A program made the position numbers and the translations under genes. Under the pieces are notes generated by a model that saw nothing but the letters and a program-made list of their open reading frames with translations, searched no databases and had not been told where the DNA came from. Below are positions 18,032 to 26,319 of a stretch of 42,456 bases of DNA, piece by piece. The stretch comes from Acidimicrobiales bacterium (GTDB lineage Bacteria; Actinomycetota; Acidimicrobiia; Acidimicrobiales; JAHWLA01), in contig DATLNE010000052.1 of assembly GCA_035536915.1 (NCBI GenBank), positions 1 to 42,456 on the forward strand, written 5' to 3'. Position 1 is the first letter of the stretch. Each line of letters opens with the position of its first letter.

Positions 18032-18894
18032 CCCGGCTCGCCTACCTCGGCACGCCCGCGGCCGCGGTCCCGCCGCTGGAGGCGTTGATCGACGCCGGCC
18101 ATGACGTGGCCCTCGTCGTCACCCAGCCCGACCGCCGTCGCGGCCGCGGTGGCGCGCTCGTGCCCAGTGCGGTCAAGGCCGCAGCCGAGGCGCATGGCAT
18201 CCCGGTGACCGAACGGGTCGACGACGTGCTCGACGCCGATGTGGAGCTGGGGGTGGTGGTGGCCTTCGGGCGGCTGGTGAAGCCGCACGTGCTCGAACGG
18301 GTGCCCATGCTCAACCTCCACTTCTCGCTGCTGCCGCGCTGGCGGGGTGCCGCACCCGTCGAGCGCGCCATCCTGGCGGGCGACAGCGAGACCGGCGTGT
18401 GCCTCATGCAGTTGGAGGAAGGGCTCGACACCGGGCCTGTCTATGCCGTGGAGCAGGTGGCCATCGGCGCGGGCGAGACGGCCGACTCGCTGCGAGAGCG
18501 ACTGGTCACCGTCGGCACCCGCCTGTTGGTGGAACGGCTGCGCGAGGGGCTGGGCGAGCCGGTGCCCCAGGCAGGTGAGGCCACCTACGCCGCCAAGTTG
18601 GAGCCCGAGGAGTTCCGGCTCGACTGGTGGCGGCCCGCGGAAGAACTGCACCGTGTGGTGCGACTGGGCCGGGCGTGGACGACGTTCCGGGGCAAGCGCT
18701 TGCGCGTGCTCGACGCCCGCTTGGTGACCGCGTCGGGCGGCCTGCACGGCGAGATCGAGAACCTCGTCGTCTCCGCGGGCGACGGCGCCGGACTGGAGTT
18801 GGTCGAGGTGCAGCCGGAGGGCAAAGGCCCGCAGTCGGCCGCCGCTTGGGCCAACGGCGCCCGCCTCCAGCCCGGCGAACGCCTCGGCGAATGA
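18028..18894 (+). CDS. fmt: Methionyl-tRNA formyltransferase
   Basis: Formylates initiator Met-tRNA using 10-formyl-tetrahydrofolate. The Rossmann-like N-terminal domain begins TRLAYLGTPAAAVPPLEAL; catalytic Asn and His are in LNLHFSLLPRWRGAAPVERA and the Asp in GLDTGPVYA. The C-terminal OB domain follows. Length is 288 residues, slightly under the usual 305-315. No ATG, GTG or TTG precedes the conserved N-terminus in this frame; CTG 18028 in a CTGA overlap with def is the best start. The 3' end overlaps rsmB (ATGA). Confidence 0.93.
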   Translation: MTRLAYLGTPAAAVPPLEALIDAGHDVALVVTQPDRRRGRGGALVPSAVKAAAEAHGIPVTERVDDVLDADVELGVVVAFGRLVKPHVLERVPMLNLHFSLLPRWRGAAPVERAILAGDSETGVCLMQLEEGLDTGPVYAVEQVAIGAGETADSLRERLVTVGTRLLVERLREGLGEPVPQAGEATYAAKLEPEEFRLDWWRPAEELHRVVRLGRAWTTFRGKRLRVLDARLVTASGGLHGEIENLVVSAGDGAGLELVEVQPEGKGPQSAAAWANGARLQPGERLGE

Positions 18895-20063
18895 CGGCCT
18901 CCACCCCCCGCCCTTCTGGTCCGTCGATTCGGCGCCAGGGCGCCGGATCGACGGACCAGAACGCTCGGGCCGTCGCCGCCCAGGCGCTGCTGCGCATCGA
19001 CGAGGGCGCCTACGCCAACCTCGTGGTGCCTGAGCTGCTCGACGCCTGTGACCTCTCGGCCCGCGACCGCGCCTTCGTCACCGAGCTCGTCTACGGCAGC
19101 ACGCGCATGCGCCGGGCCTGCGACTGGCTGGTCGACCGCTTCACCGACCGGCCCCTCGACCCCGACGTGCGCGCCGTCCTGCGCCTCGGCGCCTACCAGC
19201 TCGCCTTCCTCCAGACGCCGCCCCACGCCGCAGTGTCGGCCACCGTCTCTGCCGCGCCACCGCGAGCCCGTGGGTTCGTCAACGCCGTGCTGCGCAAGGT
19301 GGCCGGCGCCCTGCCGCCGCGGTGGCCCGACCCCGCCACCAAGCTCAGCTACCCCGACTGGATCGTGCGCCGCCTGGCCGCCGACCTCGGCGTCGATGCC
19401 GCGGCCGAGGCGTTGGAGCAGATGAACGTCGCCCCCACGGTGACCGAGCGCGACGACGGCTACGTGCAGGACGAGGCGTCGCAACAGGTCGCTGCTTATG
19501 TGGGTGCGTCGGCGGGGGAGCGGGTGGCCGACCTGTGCGCCGCGCCGGGCGGCAAAGCGACGGCGATGGCGGCCGCCTTCGTGGCCGCCTCCGACCTACT
19601 CGGCTTCCGGGTGGGGCTGGTGCAGCAGAACGTGCGCCGCCTCCGGCTCGACACCGTGGCCGTGGTGCAGGCCGACGGGCGCAGGCCGCCCTACCGGCCA
19701 GGTTCGTTCGACCGGGTGCTGCTCGACGCGCCGTGCTCGGGGCTGGGCGTGCTGCGCCGGCGGCCCGACGCCCGGTGGCGCATCGAGGCCGACGACATCG
19801 ACCGGCTCGTCGTCCTGCAACGCCAACTGCTCGACGCAGCCGTCGACCTGGTGCGGCCCGGAGGCGTGCTCGTCTACTCGGTGTGCACGCTGACGCTGGC
19901 CGAGTCGCTCGGCATCGACGAGTGGTTAGCCGACGCCCACCCCACGCTGGCGCCCCTGCCGCCGCCTGTGGCGCCGTGGGAACCGTTGGGGCGCGGCGCC
20001 CGCTTGCTCCCGCAGGCCGCAGGCACCGACGGGATGTACGTGCTCGGCCTGCGCAAGCCGTAG
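18891..20063 (+). CDS. rsmB: 16S rRNA (cytosine-967-C5)-methyltransferase RsmB, shortened
   Basis: An SAM-dependent rRNA methyltransferase with an N-terminal NusB-like RNA-binding domain (NARAVAAQALLRIDEGAYANL onward) and a catalytic domain with CAAPGGKATAM and the two catalytic Cys in LDAPCSGLG and VYSVCTLT. At 390 residues it is shorter than the usual 430-450: the linker between the NusB domain and the SAM fold is reduced to VAPTVTERDDGYVQDEAS. The first 24 codons include a 48-base palindrome encoding a non-conserved leader. No start codon lies between the palindrome and the conserved NAR motif, so translation must run through it from ATG 18891 (ATGA overlap with fmt). Confidence 0.92.
   Translation: MTASTPRPSGPSIRRQGAGSTDQNARAVAAQALLRIDEGAYANLVVPELLDACDLSARDRAFVTELVYGSTRMRRACDWLVDRFTDRPLDPDVRAVLRLGAYQLAFLQTPPHAAVSATVSAAPPRARGFVNAVLRKVAGALPPRWPDPATKLSYPDWIVRRLAADLGVDAAAEALEQMNVAPTVTERDDGYVQDEASQQVAAYVGASAGERVADLCAAPGGKATAMAAAFVAASDLLGFRVGLVQQNVRRLRLDTVAVVQADGRRPPYRPGSFDRVLLDAPCSGLGVLRRRPDARWRIEADDIDRLVVLQRQLLDAAVDLVRPGGVLVYSVCTLTLAESLGIDEWLADAHPTLAPLPPPVAPWEPLGRGARLLPQAAGTDGMYVLGLRKP
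18914..18961 (+). repeat. Palindromic repeat P1, full copy inside rsmB
   Basis: Arms 18914-18936 and 18939-18961 (23 bases each) are reverse complements with one mismatch (T18929 opposite G18946, a G-U pair in RNA) and a two-base loop AG. Bases 18930-18962 recur at 1-33 with one change. The element lies in frame in rsmB codons 8-24 and encodes SGPSIRRQGAGSTDQN. There is no T-tract, so it is not an intrinsic terminator. Confidence 0.85.
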
Positions 20064-24085: not shown

Positions 24086-24521
24086 CAAACGCGGGCGGCG
24101 GGGCGACCTCGACGCGTCGGGGCTGCGTTTCGCCGTGGTGTGCGGGCGGTTCAACGACTTCATCACCGACCGCCTGCTGTCGGGCGCGCTGGCCGCGCTG
24201 GAGAAGTACGGCGCGGCCGAACCCACGGTCACGTGGGTGCCCGGCGCCTTCGAGATCCCGCTGGTGGCCAAGCACCTGGCGGCCAAGAACGACGCCGTGA
24301 TCACGCTGGGCGCTGTCATCCGGGGCGACACCCCGCACTTCGACTTCGTGGCGGGGGAGTGCGCATCGGGGCTCATGCGGGTGCAGCTCGACACCGGCGT
24401 GCCGTGCGTGTTCGGCGTGCTCACCACCGACACCGTCGAGCAGGCGGAAGCTCGGCTCGACAAGGGCTTCGAGGCGGCCGAGACGGCCATCGAGATGGCC
24501 ATGGTCCTCAAGGAAACCTGA
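24072..24521 (+). CDS. ribH: 6,7-dimethyl-8-ribityllumazine synthase
   Basis: Condenses the RibD and RibB products into lumazine; forms large shells. The 149-residue protein contains [48 protein letters not shown] (catalytic His) and the C-terminal [15 protein letters not shown] 24072 is preceded by GGAGGGG inside ribBA. The stop overlaps hisG (TGATG), so hisG appears co-translated with the rib genes. Confidence 0.96.
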
Positions 24522-25396
24522 TGCTGCGACTCGTCCTGCCCAAAGGCTCGCTGGAGCGCGCCACCCTCGAGCTGTTCGAGTCGGCCGACCTCGCCGTCAG
24601 CCGCTCGTCGTCGGTCGACTACAAGGCCACCATCGCCGATCCCCGCATCGACGAGGTGCGTATCCTGCGGCCGCAGGAGATCCCGCGGTATGTGGCCGAG
24701 GGGTTGTTCGACCTCGGCATCACGGGGCGCGACTGGATCGAGGAGACGGCGTCCGACGTGGTCTCGCTGGGCGAGCTCCACTATTCCAAGGCGACGGCCC
24801 GGCCCATCAAGCTGGTGCTCGCCGTGGCCGCCGACTCGCCCGTGCAGGCCGTCGAGGACCTGCCCCAAGGGGTGCGGGTCACCACCGAGTACCCCGAGAT
24901 CACCCGGCGGTTCCTCGAGAAGGCGGGCGTCGACGCCACGGTCACGCTGTCGTACGGCGCCACCGAGGCCAAGATCCCCGATATCGCCGATGCCGTGGTG
25001 GAGATCACCGAGACGGGCCGGGCGCTGAAGGCGGCGGGCCTGCGCATCGTCGACACCATCCTCACGTCGTACACCGAGCTGATCGCCAACCCCGCCGCGT
25101 GCGACGACCCCGAGAAGCGCCACGCCATGCACCAGATCCACACGCTGTTGCAGGGCACGCTCGAAGCGCGCGGCAAGGTGCTGGTGAAGCTCAACGTGGC
25201 CGACGCCGACCTGCAGTCGCTCATCGAGATCCTGCCGTCGATGAAAGCGCCGACGGTGTCGAAGCTCTTCGGCGAAGGCGGCTACGCGGTGGAGACGGTG
25301 GTGCCCAAGGCCGAGATCAACGTCTTGATCCCCGCCCTCAAGGACCACGGCGCCACCGACATCATCGAACTGCCGCTCTCCAAGATCGTCCACTAG
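24521..25396 (+). CDS. hisG: ATP phosphoribosyltransferase, long form
   Basis: First step of histidine synthesis, joining ATP and PRPP. The N-terminal part begins LRLVLPKGSLERATLELFE and has GITGRDWIEE; the PRPP loop lies in ADAVVEITETGRALKAAGLR. A C-terminal ACT-like domain (EILPSMKAPTVSKLFGEGGY) makes this the long, self-regulated HisG that does not need HisZ. Length is 291 residues. It overlaps ribH and no other his gene is in the window, so it is the tail of a rib operon. Confidence 0.96.
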   Translation: MLRLVLPKGSLERATLELFESADLAVSRSSSVDYKATIADPRIDEVRILRPQEIPRYVAEGLFDLGITGRDWIEETASDVVSLGELHYSKATARPIKLVLAVAADSPVQAVEDLPQGVRVTTEYPEITRRFLEKAGVDATVTLSYGATEAKIPDIADAVVEITETGRALKAAGLRIVDTILTSYTELIANPAACDDPEKRHAMHQIHTLLQGTLEARGKVLVKLNVADADLQSLIEILPSMKAPTVSKLFGEGGYAVETVVPKAEINVLIPALKDHGATDIIELPLSKIVH

Positions 25397-25400
25397 TCCG

Positions 25401-25604
25401 ATGCGCGGGCGGGTGATGGCTTTCGACGAGCACGTGGGGCTCGGGGAGATCGAGGCCGACGACGGCGGCCGCTACCCCTTCCACTGCACCCGCATCGCCG
25501 ACGGCACCCGCACCATCGACGTGGGCGCGGAAGTCACCTTCGAAACGACCCCCGGCCACCTCGGCCGCTCCGAAGCTTCTTCCGTGAGCCAAAGCTCCCG
25601 CTGA
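25401..25604 (+). CDS. Cold-shock-domain-like small protein with palindrome-derived C-terminus
   Basis: A 67-residue protein resembling a divergent cold-shock OB fold: GRVMAFDEHVGLGEIEADDGGRYPFHCTRI takes the place of the usual start with its RNP1 and RNP2 motifs, but several aromatic RNA-binding residues are replaced. The last residues SSVSQSSR and the stop are encoded by the left arm and loop of a 23-bp perfect hairpin, which suggests that the original C-terminus was changed. It starts at ATG 25401, four bases after hisG, and may be the last gene of the rib-hisG unit. The role is unknown; RNA binding is inferred. Confidence 0.65.
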   Translation: MRGRVMAFDEHVGLGEIEADDGGRYPFHCTRIADGTRTIDVGAEVTFETTPGHLGRSEASSVSQSSR

Positions 25605-25627
25605 GCGGGAGCTTTGGCTCACGGAAG
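25579..25627 (+). repeat. 23-bp perfect hairpin with the stop codon as its loop
   Basis: Arms 25579-25601 and 25605-25627 are exact reverse complements, and the loop 25602-25604 is the TGA stop of the cold-shock-like gene. There is no T-tract on either strand. It may end transcription from both sides between convergent genes, or be an inserted palindromic element. Confidence 0.85.
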
Positions 25628-25632
25628 TGAGA

Positions 25633-25668
25633 GAGGAGGTAGCGCTTCGAGCGAAGCGCTACCTCCTC
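25633..25668 (+). repeat. 17-bp perfect hairpin with AG loop
   Basis: Arms 25633-25649 and 25652-25668 are exact reverse complements around a two-base AG loop, the same loop as palindrome P1. It lies six bases after the previous hairpin and 12 bases beyond the stop of the convergent minus-strand gene. It may serve as a bidirectional terminator, though T-runs are absent. Confidence 0.8.
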
Positions 25669-25680
25669 GGAGATCGCTGC

Positions 25681-26085
25681 CTACAGGCACAACGCCGTTA
25701 TCGCTCCGCCAAACGCGGGCGGCGGAGAATGGCCTGTGCCCGCGGTTCCATACGCTCGTGACGACCACCCTCCAATCGCGCACGGCGCCGTGACGGTGAC
25801 GCTCGCGGAAAACTGGAGCGCCGGGTTGTTGACATTGTTCGTATTGCAGTATGTCCGAGTTGTTGCGCTGAACGAATAATCGAGACAGGCTGTGATCGTG
25901 TAGAGCTGGTGGGCACTGGTGCACGAGATTGCCCCTGTTGCGACCACCCAGGATCCGGACTCCTGCGGTGGCGTGACCGTGACTGCGCAGGTCCCGTGTG
26001 CCGATGCTGCAGGCGCCGTTACGACCACGGCGACGCCCCCCAGCGCGATCGCCACAAGTAGTCGGGCTCTCCACAAGCGAACCAT
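25681..26085 (-). CDS. Small secreted protein of unknown function
   Basis: A 134-residue protein with a clear Sec signal peptide: basic VRLWRARLL, hydrophobic VAIALGGVAVVVTAP, and a likely cleavage after AASA. The mature part has six Cys, which could form three disulfides, and is rich in Thr, Ser, Ala and Gly. I do not recognise a family. The start ATG at 26085 has AGGGGGA seven bases upstream; the frame is open a further 20 codons, but that extension lacks secretion features. Base composition is visibly lower in GC than all neighbours (many TTG, ATT and AAT words), a sign of recent arrival. It converges on the cold-shock-like gene across two hairpins. Confidence 0.7.
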   Translation of the reverse strand: MVRLWRARLLVAIALGGVAVVVTAPAASAHGTCAVTVTPPQESGSWVVATGAISCTSAHQLYTITACLDYSFSATTRTYCNTNNVNNPALQFSASVTVTAPCAIGGWSSRAYGTAGTGHSPPPAFGGAITALCL

Positions 26086-26319
26086 GGCAAAATCCCCCTG
26101 ACTCTTTGACAGCCGACTTGGTTGTCGTAGGCATGATGCGCTCACAGCCTGTCCGTTGCGACACCCCCCCGAGGTGAAATTGATTGTCGCCCGGTGACAG
26201 TCATGTGTGTCGCACGCGTGCCCTCCTTCAAGGCTCGCGTGCCCTCATCAACGGGTGGGGTGTCGCTGCCGCATGCCACCAGCACGAGCGGCGGGACCAC
26301 CACCCCGCCCCAGCACGTG
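26086..26319. other. Intergenic stretch between two minus-strand genes
   Basis: No gene is evident. It holds an 11-bp direct repeat CGCGTGCCCTC at 26215-26225 and 26236-26246, a 6-bp hairpin GGCGGG/CCCGCC (26290-26295 with 26304-26309) that could weakly end transcription of the DUF1844-like gene, and the self-complementary AGCACGTGCT at 26312-26321 next to that gene's stop. No convincing promoter for the secreted protein was found. Confidence 0.5.

Follow-up and report, generated by a model that had tools for sequence, protein, structure and literature searches.

REPs are short, dispersed palindromes that form species-specific families and lie mostly 3′ of genes, whether unidirectional or convergent (PMC3733652). 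REPs of the GTAG type are reported to contribute, in many cases, the TAG stop codon of neighboring ORFs, and those of the CGTC type occur without a dedicated transposase (PMC3733652). Among actinobacteria, the MIRUs of mycobacteria are seemingly mobile repeats at gene junctions, coupled to the start of the gene that follows (PMC12548453). Here, we analyze a 42,456-nt stretch of DNA (the window) from an uncultured actinobacterial lineage, in which a cold-shock-domain gene, csd, ends within a perfect hairpin. Very probably, this hairpin is a copy of one REP-like family, E, among several that have proliferated in the lineage and lodged at the 3′ ends of genes.

REPs are the nearest known kind, and the families described here are new, RAYT-less and REP-like. 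As with REPs, the elements form dispersed palindromic families in extragenic positions; as with GTAG REPs, they supply TAG stops; as with CGTC REPs, no dedicated transposase was found; and as with BIMEs, elements (E1 and E2) are paired. Unlike REPs, which span 20–40 nt and have a short stem, the units here are of fixed length, about 45–52 nt, with stems of 20–24 bp. Their flanks hold no unpaired GTAG or CGTC tag: family A has CG outside both ends, and family C has no consensus tetramer. No RAYT (Y1) gene was found in three carrier genomes, in contrast to GTAG REPs. Other differences from REPs are that stops recur in the loop and that a mirror-image ATG of family C is used as a start.

Other systems offer partial parallels. 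Rickettsia palindromic elements (RPEs), in the form in which this class is cited in PMC3733652 and PMC1590033, are likewise palindromic repeats that add residues to proteins. RPEs lie inside ORFs, whereas the copies here are found at the ends of genes, where they usually encode no more than the last 3–9 residues. MIRUs, compared here by description rather than by sequence, offer a functional parallel among actinobacteria as apparently mobile repeats of gene junctions; for the elements, the supply of stops is clear, and the supply of starts is convincing for CobT of the congener. Unlike the elements, MIRUs are non-palindromic, tandemly repeated and equipped with a small ORF. Finally, the bidirectional or U-less intrinsic terminators of high-GC Gram-positives also place a GC-rich hairpin right past the stop of convergent genes. 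Such terminators differ from our elements, which form dispersed sequence families, vary in presence between congeners, and can hold the stop codon within the hairpin.

A hairpin around the csd stop codon

The hairpin occupies positions 25579–25627, which read CTTCCGTGAGCCAAAGCTCCCGC-TGA-GCGGGAGCTTTGGCTCACGGAAG: 23 pairs with zero mismatches, and TGA between the arms. Read as a DNA palindrome, the same interval has 24-nt arms flanking one base. It is the longest perfect inverted repeat found in the window, with a palindrome score of 24; a Markov-shuffled control of 440 kb yielded 15 palindromes scoring at least 13, with a maximum of 17. A 131-nt region containing the hairpin folds as RNA with z = −10.4, better than every one of 200 shuffles. 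We delimit the element (assigned no strand, like the other palindromes below) as the 47-nt unit 25580–25626, with a 23-bp stem and TGA loop; its core CCCGCTGAGCGGG, at 25597–25609, is common to the E copies of this genome and the congener. The csd gene (25401–25604, + strand), whose product matches the cold-shock domain PF00313 (E = 6e-7), has its last eight codons (SSVSQSSR) and its stop inside the element. The C-terminus reads ...EASSVSQSSR, and the stop is the loop TGA itself (25602–25604, + strand). Sequence, ORF and fold thus bear out the preliminary description of a perfect 23-bp hairpin with a TGA loop ending a csd-type gene.

Upstream, hisG (24521–25396, + strand) serves as a syntenic anchor for orthologue comparison, since csd lies 3′ of hisG both here and in most relatives' loci. 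Downstream, a second perfect hairpin (25633–25668; 17 bp, 2-nt loop), apparently single-copy, starts 5 nt past the csd element. It lies 12 nt beyond the stop of a convergent 154-aa ORF (25681–26145, − strand) with a signal-peptide-like N-terminus, and is possibly that ORF's own terminator. Only in this genome is this secreted-looking ORF interposed between csd and the next convergent gene that is conserved; no homologue was found in the other loci compared, and it is missing from the csd locus of the congener. An Rfam scan gave nothing relevant, nor did a scan for tRNA and tmRNA. Scans for consensus terminators and promoters gave no site, and neither strand of the csd hairpin has the T-tract that follows the GC-rich hairpin of an intrinsic terminator.

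Palindrome families at gene ends

At least six dispersed families of near-perfect palindromes, of about 45–55 bp, are present in this genome and its one congener. We name them A, B, C, E, G and H, alongside minor ones; D and F also figure in our palindrome listing, which covers 440–835 kb of the genome and holds about 30 palindromes of 44–62 nt in several families, with E in the minority. Family A is marked by TTCTGGTCCG, B by GAAGTTGCG and C by TCCCGAGTACATAG, and families G and H were added by the congener. Whole-genome searches with exact patterns found 22 copies of A and 24 of C here, and 53 and 35, respectively, in the congener. Of 57 further genomes in the order, none has A and two have a single copy of C each; reversed-pattern controls gave zero matches in every genome searched. 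Across a public genome set, which may leave out the window's own genome, matches to C at its exact spacing of 37 nt were confined to the congener (MAG 0813_bin7), YU_71_112, AC_25 and BP_115. Family A has no match in viral contigs. The congener is represented by a single genome, 76% complete and in 230 contigs. Some of these contigs (L130 1–48, L133 2–53, L112 3–54) start precisely at an A-type palindrome, so that additional copies are hidden by breaks in the assembly. Besides the whole-genome pattern searches, we analyzed stretches of ~1.09 Mb from this genome and ~0.67 Mb from the congener; these were partly chosen around known A and C copies, and we draw no per-Mb densities from them.

A search of the genome with the csd palindrome, as the preliminary description had proposed, turned up three related copies at unrelated loci (C33:46744, C31:52865 and C6:12837), bringing family E to four copies in this genome. 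They have a common core, CCCGCTSAGCGGG, and arms near TTCCGTGAGCC. The 13-base core alone is too short for specificity: one of its five genome matches is a chance match inside a gene. The stop is an outer TGA in the C6 and C33 copies and the loop TGA in the window copy. The congener also has an E subtype, TTCTGGAGGCA. The csd palindrome had initially been paired with one at rsmB. The latter does exist (18914–18961; 23-nt arms, one mismatch), 23 nt into the 5′ end of the rsmB ORF (18891–20063), but the two belong to different families, csd to E and rsmB to A.

Gene calls in the sampled stretches show that copies of A, C, G and H almost always start 0–20 nt past a stop, or contain one. When palindrome centres are plotted against 951 stops, a main downstream peak is seen, with a spike at +10 that corresponds to family C; five centres form a distinct cluster at zero. 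These five further stop-in-loop copies, in 1.09 Mb, have a probability of about 1e-4 as the tail of the main peak; csd, too short for the gene caller, comes on top. In other genes the loop stop is TAG, TAA or TGA. Four A copies contain a stop, in the outer arm or the loop. In 12 C copies, the stop falls at an identical position in the element, the TAG of GAGTACATAG, and 12 unrelated proteins have the C-encoded tails VPST, LPST, HPST, LRST, VRST or LSST ([V/L/H]-[P/R/S]-S-T). The elements thus provide stops at fixed element positions, giving unrelated proteins element-encoded tails. In family C, a mirror-image ATG serves as a start codon. This is convincing for cobT of the congener (L127 1821–1865 and 2923–2967), which takes its start ATG (MYSG...) from one C element and its stop (...LPST) from another; in cobT orthologues that lack elements, the protein begins MTSRF or MTSFF and has another end. 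Other cases of element-supplied starts come from gene calls alone.

Comparison of the congeners shows that copies come and go: 13 of 17 alignable element/site comparisons have an empty orthologous site, without a hairpin. Three others have the same family (one locus being counted from both sides), and one has another palindrome. At further orthologous gene ends, different families occupy one site in the two species. Clearest of all is the end of the congener's thiE-like gene, where 46 nt have been inserted next to a CTAG that this genome retains; the congener's gene terminates in ALSST, at the TAG of the element. Presence and absence at orthologous sites, with a clean empty site, is what is looked for in a mobile element.

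In light of the dispersed families, their position 0–20 nt after stops, their supply of stops and the mostly empty orthologous sites, the initial proposal of palindromes that lodge at the edges of genes and rewrite the ends of proteins is well supported. The bias toward gene ends may reflect insertion plus selection against in-gene copies, or true targeting of stop codons. What emerges is that short mobile palindromes have repeatedly and traceably rewritten the protein ends encoded by housekeeping genes, which include csd, cobT, the thiE-like gene and probably rsmB. It also carries a warning: shared C-terminal tails such as -PST can derive from repeats, not function.

Origin and role of the csd hairpin

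In the congener, the order at the csd locus is csd-TAG-E1-CGG-E2-convergent gene. The window element matches this E1 at 33 of 47 positions (null maximum 27, from 5000 shuffled palindromes), and another congener copy, L138a, at 35 of 47. In alignment, this genome has a gap of 21–22 nt between the last shared csd codon and the element, where the congener has AITTVS and its stop. The preliminary description had called for a comparison of C-termini, and had named distant orthologues with both the same C-terminus and the same hairpin as the pattern of an ordinary conserved terminator. We looked for this pattern and did not find it: the C-termini of about 25 csd orthologues in the order differ, and no comparable hairpin lies on the stop, except for the congener's separate elements. 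In YU_71_112 (L221, about 2574–2608), the csd TAG is central in an unrelated perfect hairpin, GTGCAGAACACCGCGC-ATA-GCGCGGTGTTCTGCAC. The pairing of E1 with E2 is seen at two loci of the congener (L138 1176–1294 and L139 (congener csd locus)), like BIME-type pairs.

We ascribe the csd hairpin to a mobile repeat on account of the families, which nearly all relatives lack, the gene-end position, the element-encoded tails, the stop-in-loop cluster, the empty sites, the covariation of arms in A and C, and the likeness to E1 at csd; family E itself has few copies (four here). An ordinary bidirectional intrinsic terminator that has grown back over the csd stop, resembling other palindromes by convergence or sampling, would suit a site between convergent genes, and single-copy hairpins such as 25633–25668 also occur at gene ends. 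It is nonetheless improbable, given three related copies at unrelated loci, with fixed length and family structure, orthologous sites without any hairpin, and the absence of both a T-tract and a terminator-scan match. An ordinary origin therefore does not fit, although a terminator function is possible. The idea, raised initially, that the stop-centred hairpin serves recoding (readthrough or frameshifting at the UGA) draws on the strong structure at this codon and on a frame that stays open for 63 codons beyond it. We consider it highly improbable: this downstream frame is antisense to the convergent ORF and shows no sign of conservation, no csd orthologue has such an extension, loop stops elsewhere may be TAG, TAA or TGA, and Rfam gave no match.

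How csd came to overlap the element is a separate matter. Because an E element follows directly on the csd TAG of the congener, a deletion may explain the overlap. An old E element would have resided beside the native stop, and a small deletion would then have fused csd to it; csd now reads through the left arm to the first in-frame stop, the TGA of the loop. From the alignment, this is the simplest history and may be a better explanation than fresh insertion, the basis for choosing between them being one congener. An E element could instead have inserted independently at csd here and displaced the gene's own tail and stop. Elsewhere, orthologous gene ends occupied by different families do represent independent arrivals, and the window copy is slightly nearer to L138a than to the congener's csd copy. 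Yet both species have the same family at the same place, and the alignment shows one simple gap, which leaves independent insertion a substantial but rather doubtful alternative to the fusion of csd with a resident element.

As to function, the hairpin probably acts as an RNA 3′-end boundary. A GC-rich RNA hairpin at the stop could do so as a U-less terminator, as a barrier to 3′ exonucleases, or as a brake on translation termination. Between convergent genes, this boundary would be two-sided, and may let the element be tolerated there. The loop would recur as a stop site in that it is the only unpaired part, where a stop can arise without breaking the stem. In E. coli, a REP no more than 15 nt from a stop has been reported to lower translation, according to the citation of that work in PMC12306157. 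Most elements here lie at most 15 nt from a stop, and the hairpin may plausibly affect transcript ends or translation termination.

Arm pairing and mobilization

Why the arms stay paired while their sequence drifts is a question posed by these families. Arms covary in A (0.93 paired) and C (0.91), compared with 0.81 and 0.78 for shuffled arms; no covariation is found in B and H. Unlike A and C, the B and H elements (for example, C33:1089–1139 and L104:12475–12531) share their internal mismatches across copies. Given this contrast, different families may be upheld in different ways. A test for excess G-U on the sense strand found none, with 15 G-T versus 25 A-C mismatches; since G-U is not favored over A-C, the test gave no support for selection at the RNA level. 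The pairing may owe as much to a DNA process, such as template switching from arm to arm, or to selection for DNA structure, as it does to selection on RNA. In its strong form, this says that a DNA process (template switching, or copying of a folded single strand during transposition) keeps the arms perfect, and RNA-hairpin selection does not. Compensated arms in A and C, together with the lack of G-U preference in one-sided elements, make this a serious contender, if a slightly disfavored one; against it stand the small mismatch counts, the fixed mismatches kept in B and H, and the placement right after stops, which suggests an RNA role.

What moves REP-like palindromes where RAYT is absent is also posed as a question by these genomes. 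No match to Y1/RAYT (PF01797) was obtained, even at E ≤ 10, in this genome (99.5% complete), the congener (76%) or YU_71_112. From these searches, the mobilizing enzyme appears to be something other than a recognizable Y1/RAYT transposase. An IS110-type transposase (PF02371) has one match here, one in YU_71_112 and none in the congener, which is richest in elements, so there is no correlation with element number. The genes between pairs of C elements, considered as autonomous (REPtron-like) versions, are housekeeping genes rather than transposases in those that we read. A tentative synthesis, on balance unlikely as a whole, is that the palindromes are portable gene-end modules that insert at stops, bring their own stop, placed in the loop or an outer arm, as well as a mirror-image start in the case of C, have their near-perfect arms regenerated by copying rather than by drift, and are moved by a mechanism other than that of Y1/RAYT. 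At one locus (C10:9969–10007 versus L107:5388–5434), a C element is identical at 39 of 39 positions between the two species, in flanks of about 77% identity, which suggests constraint or conversion at the site.
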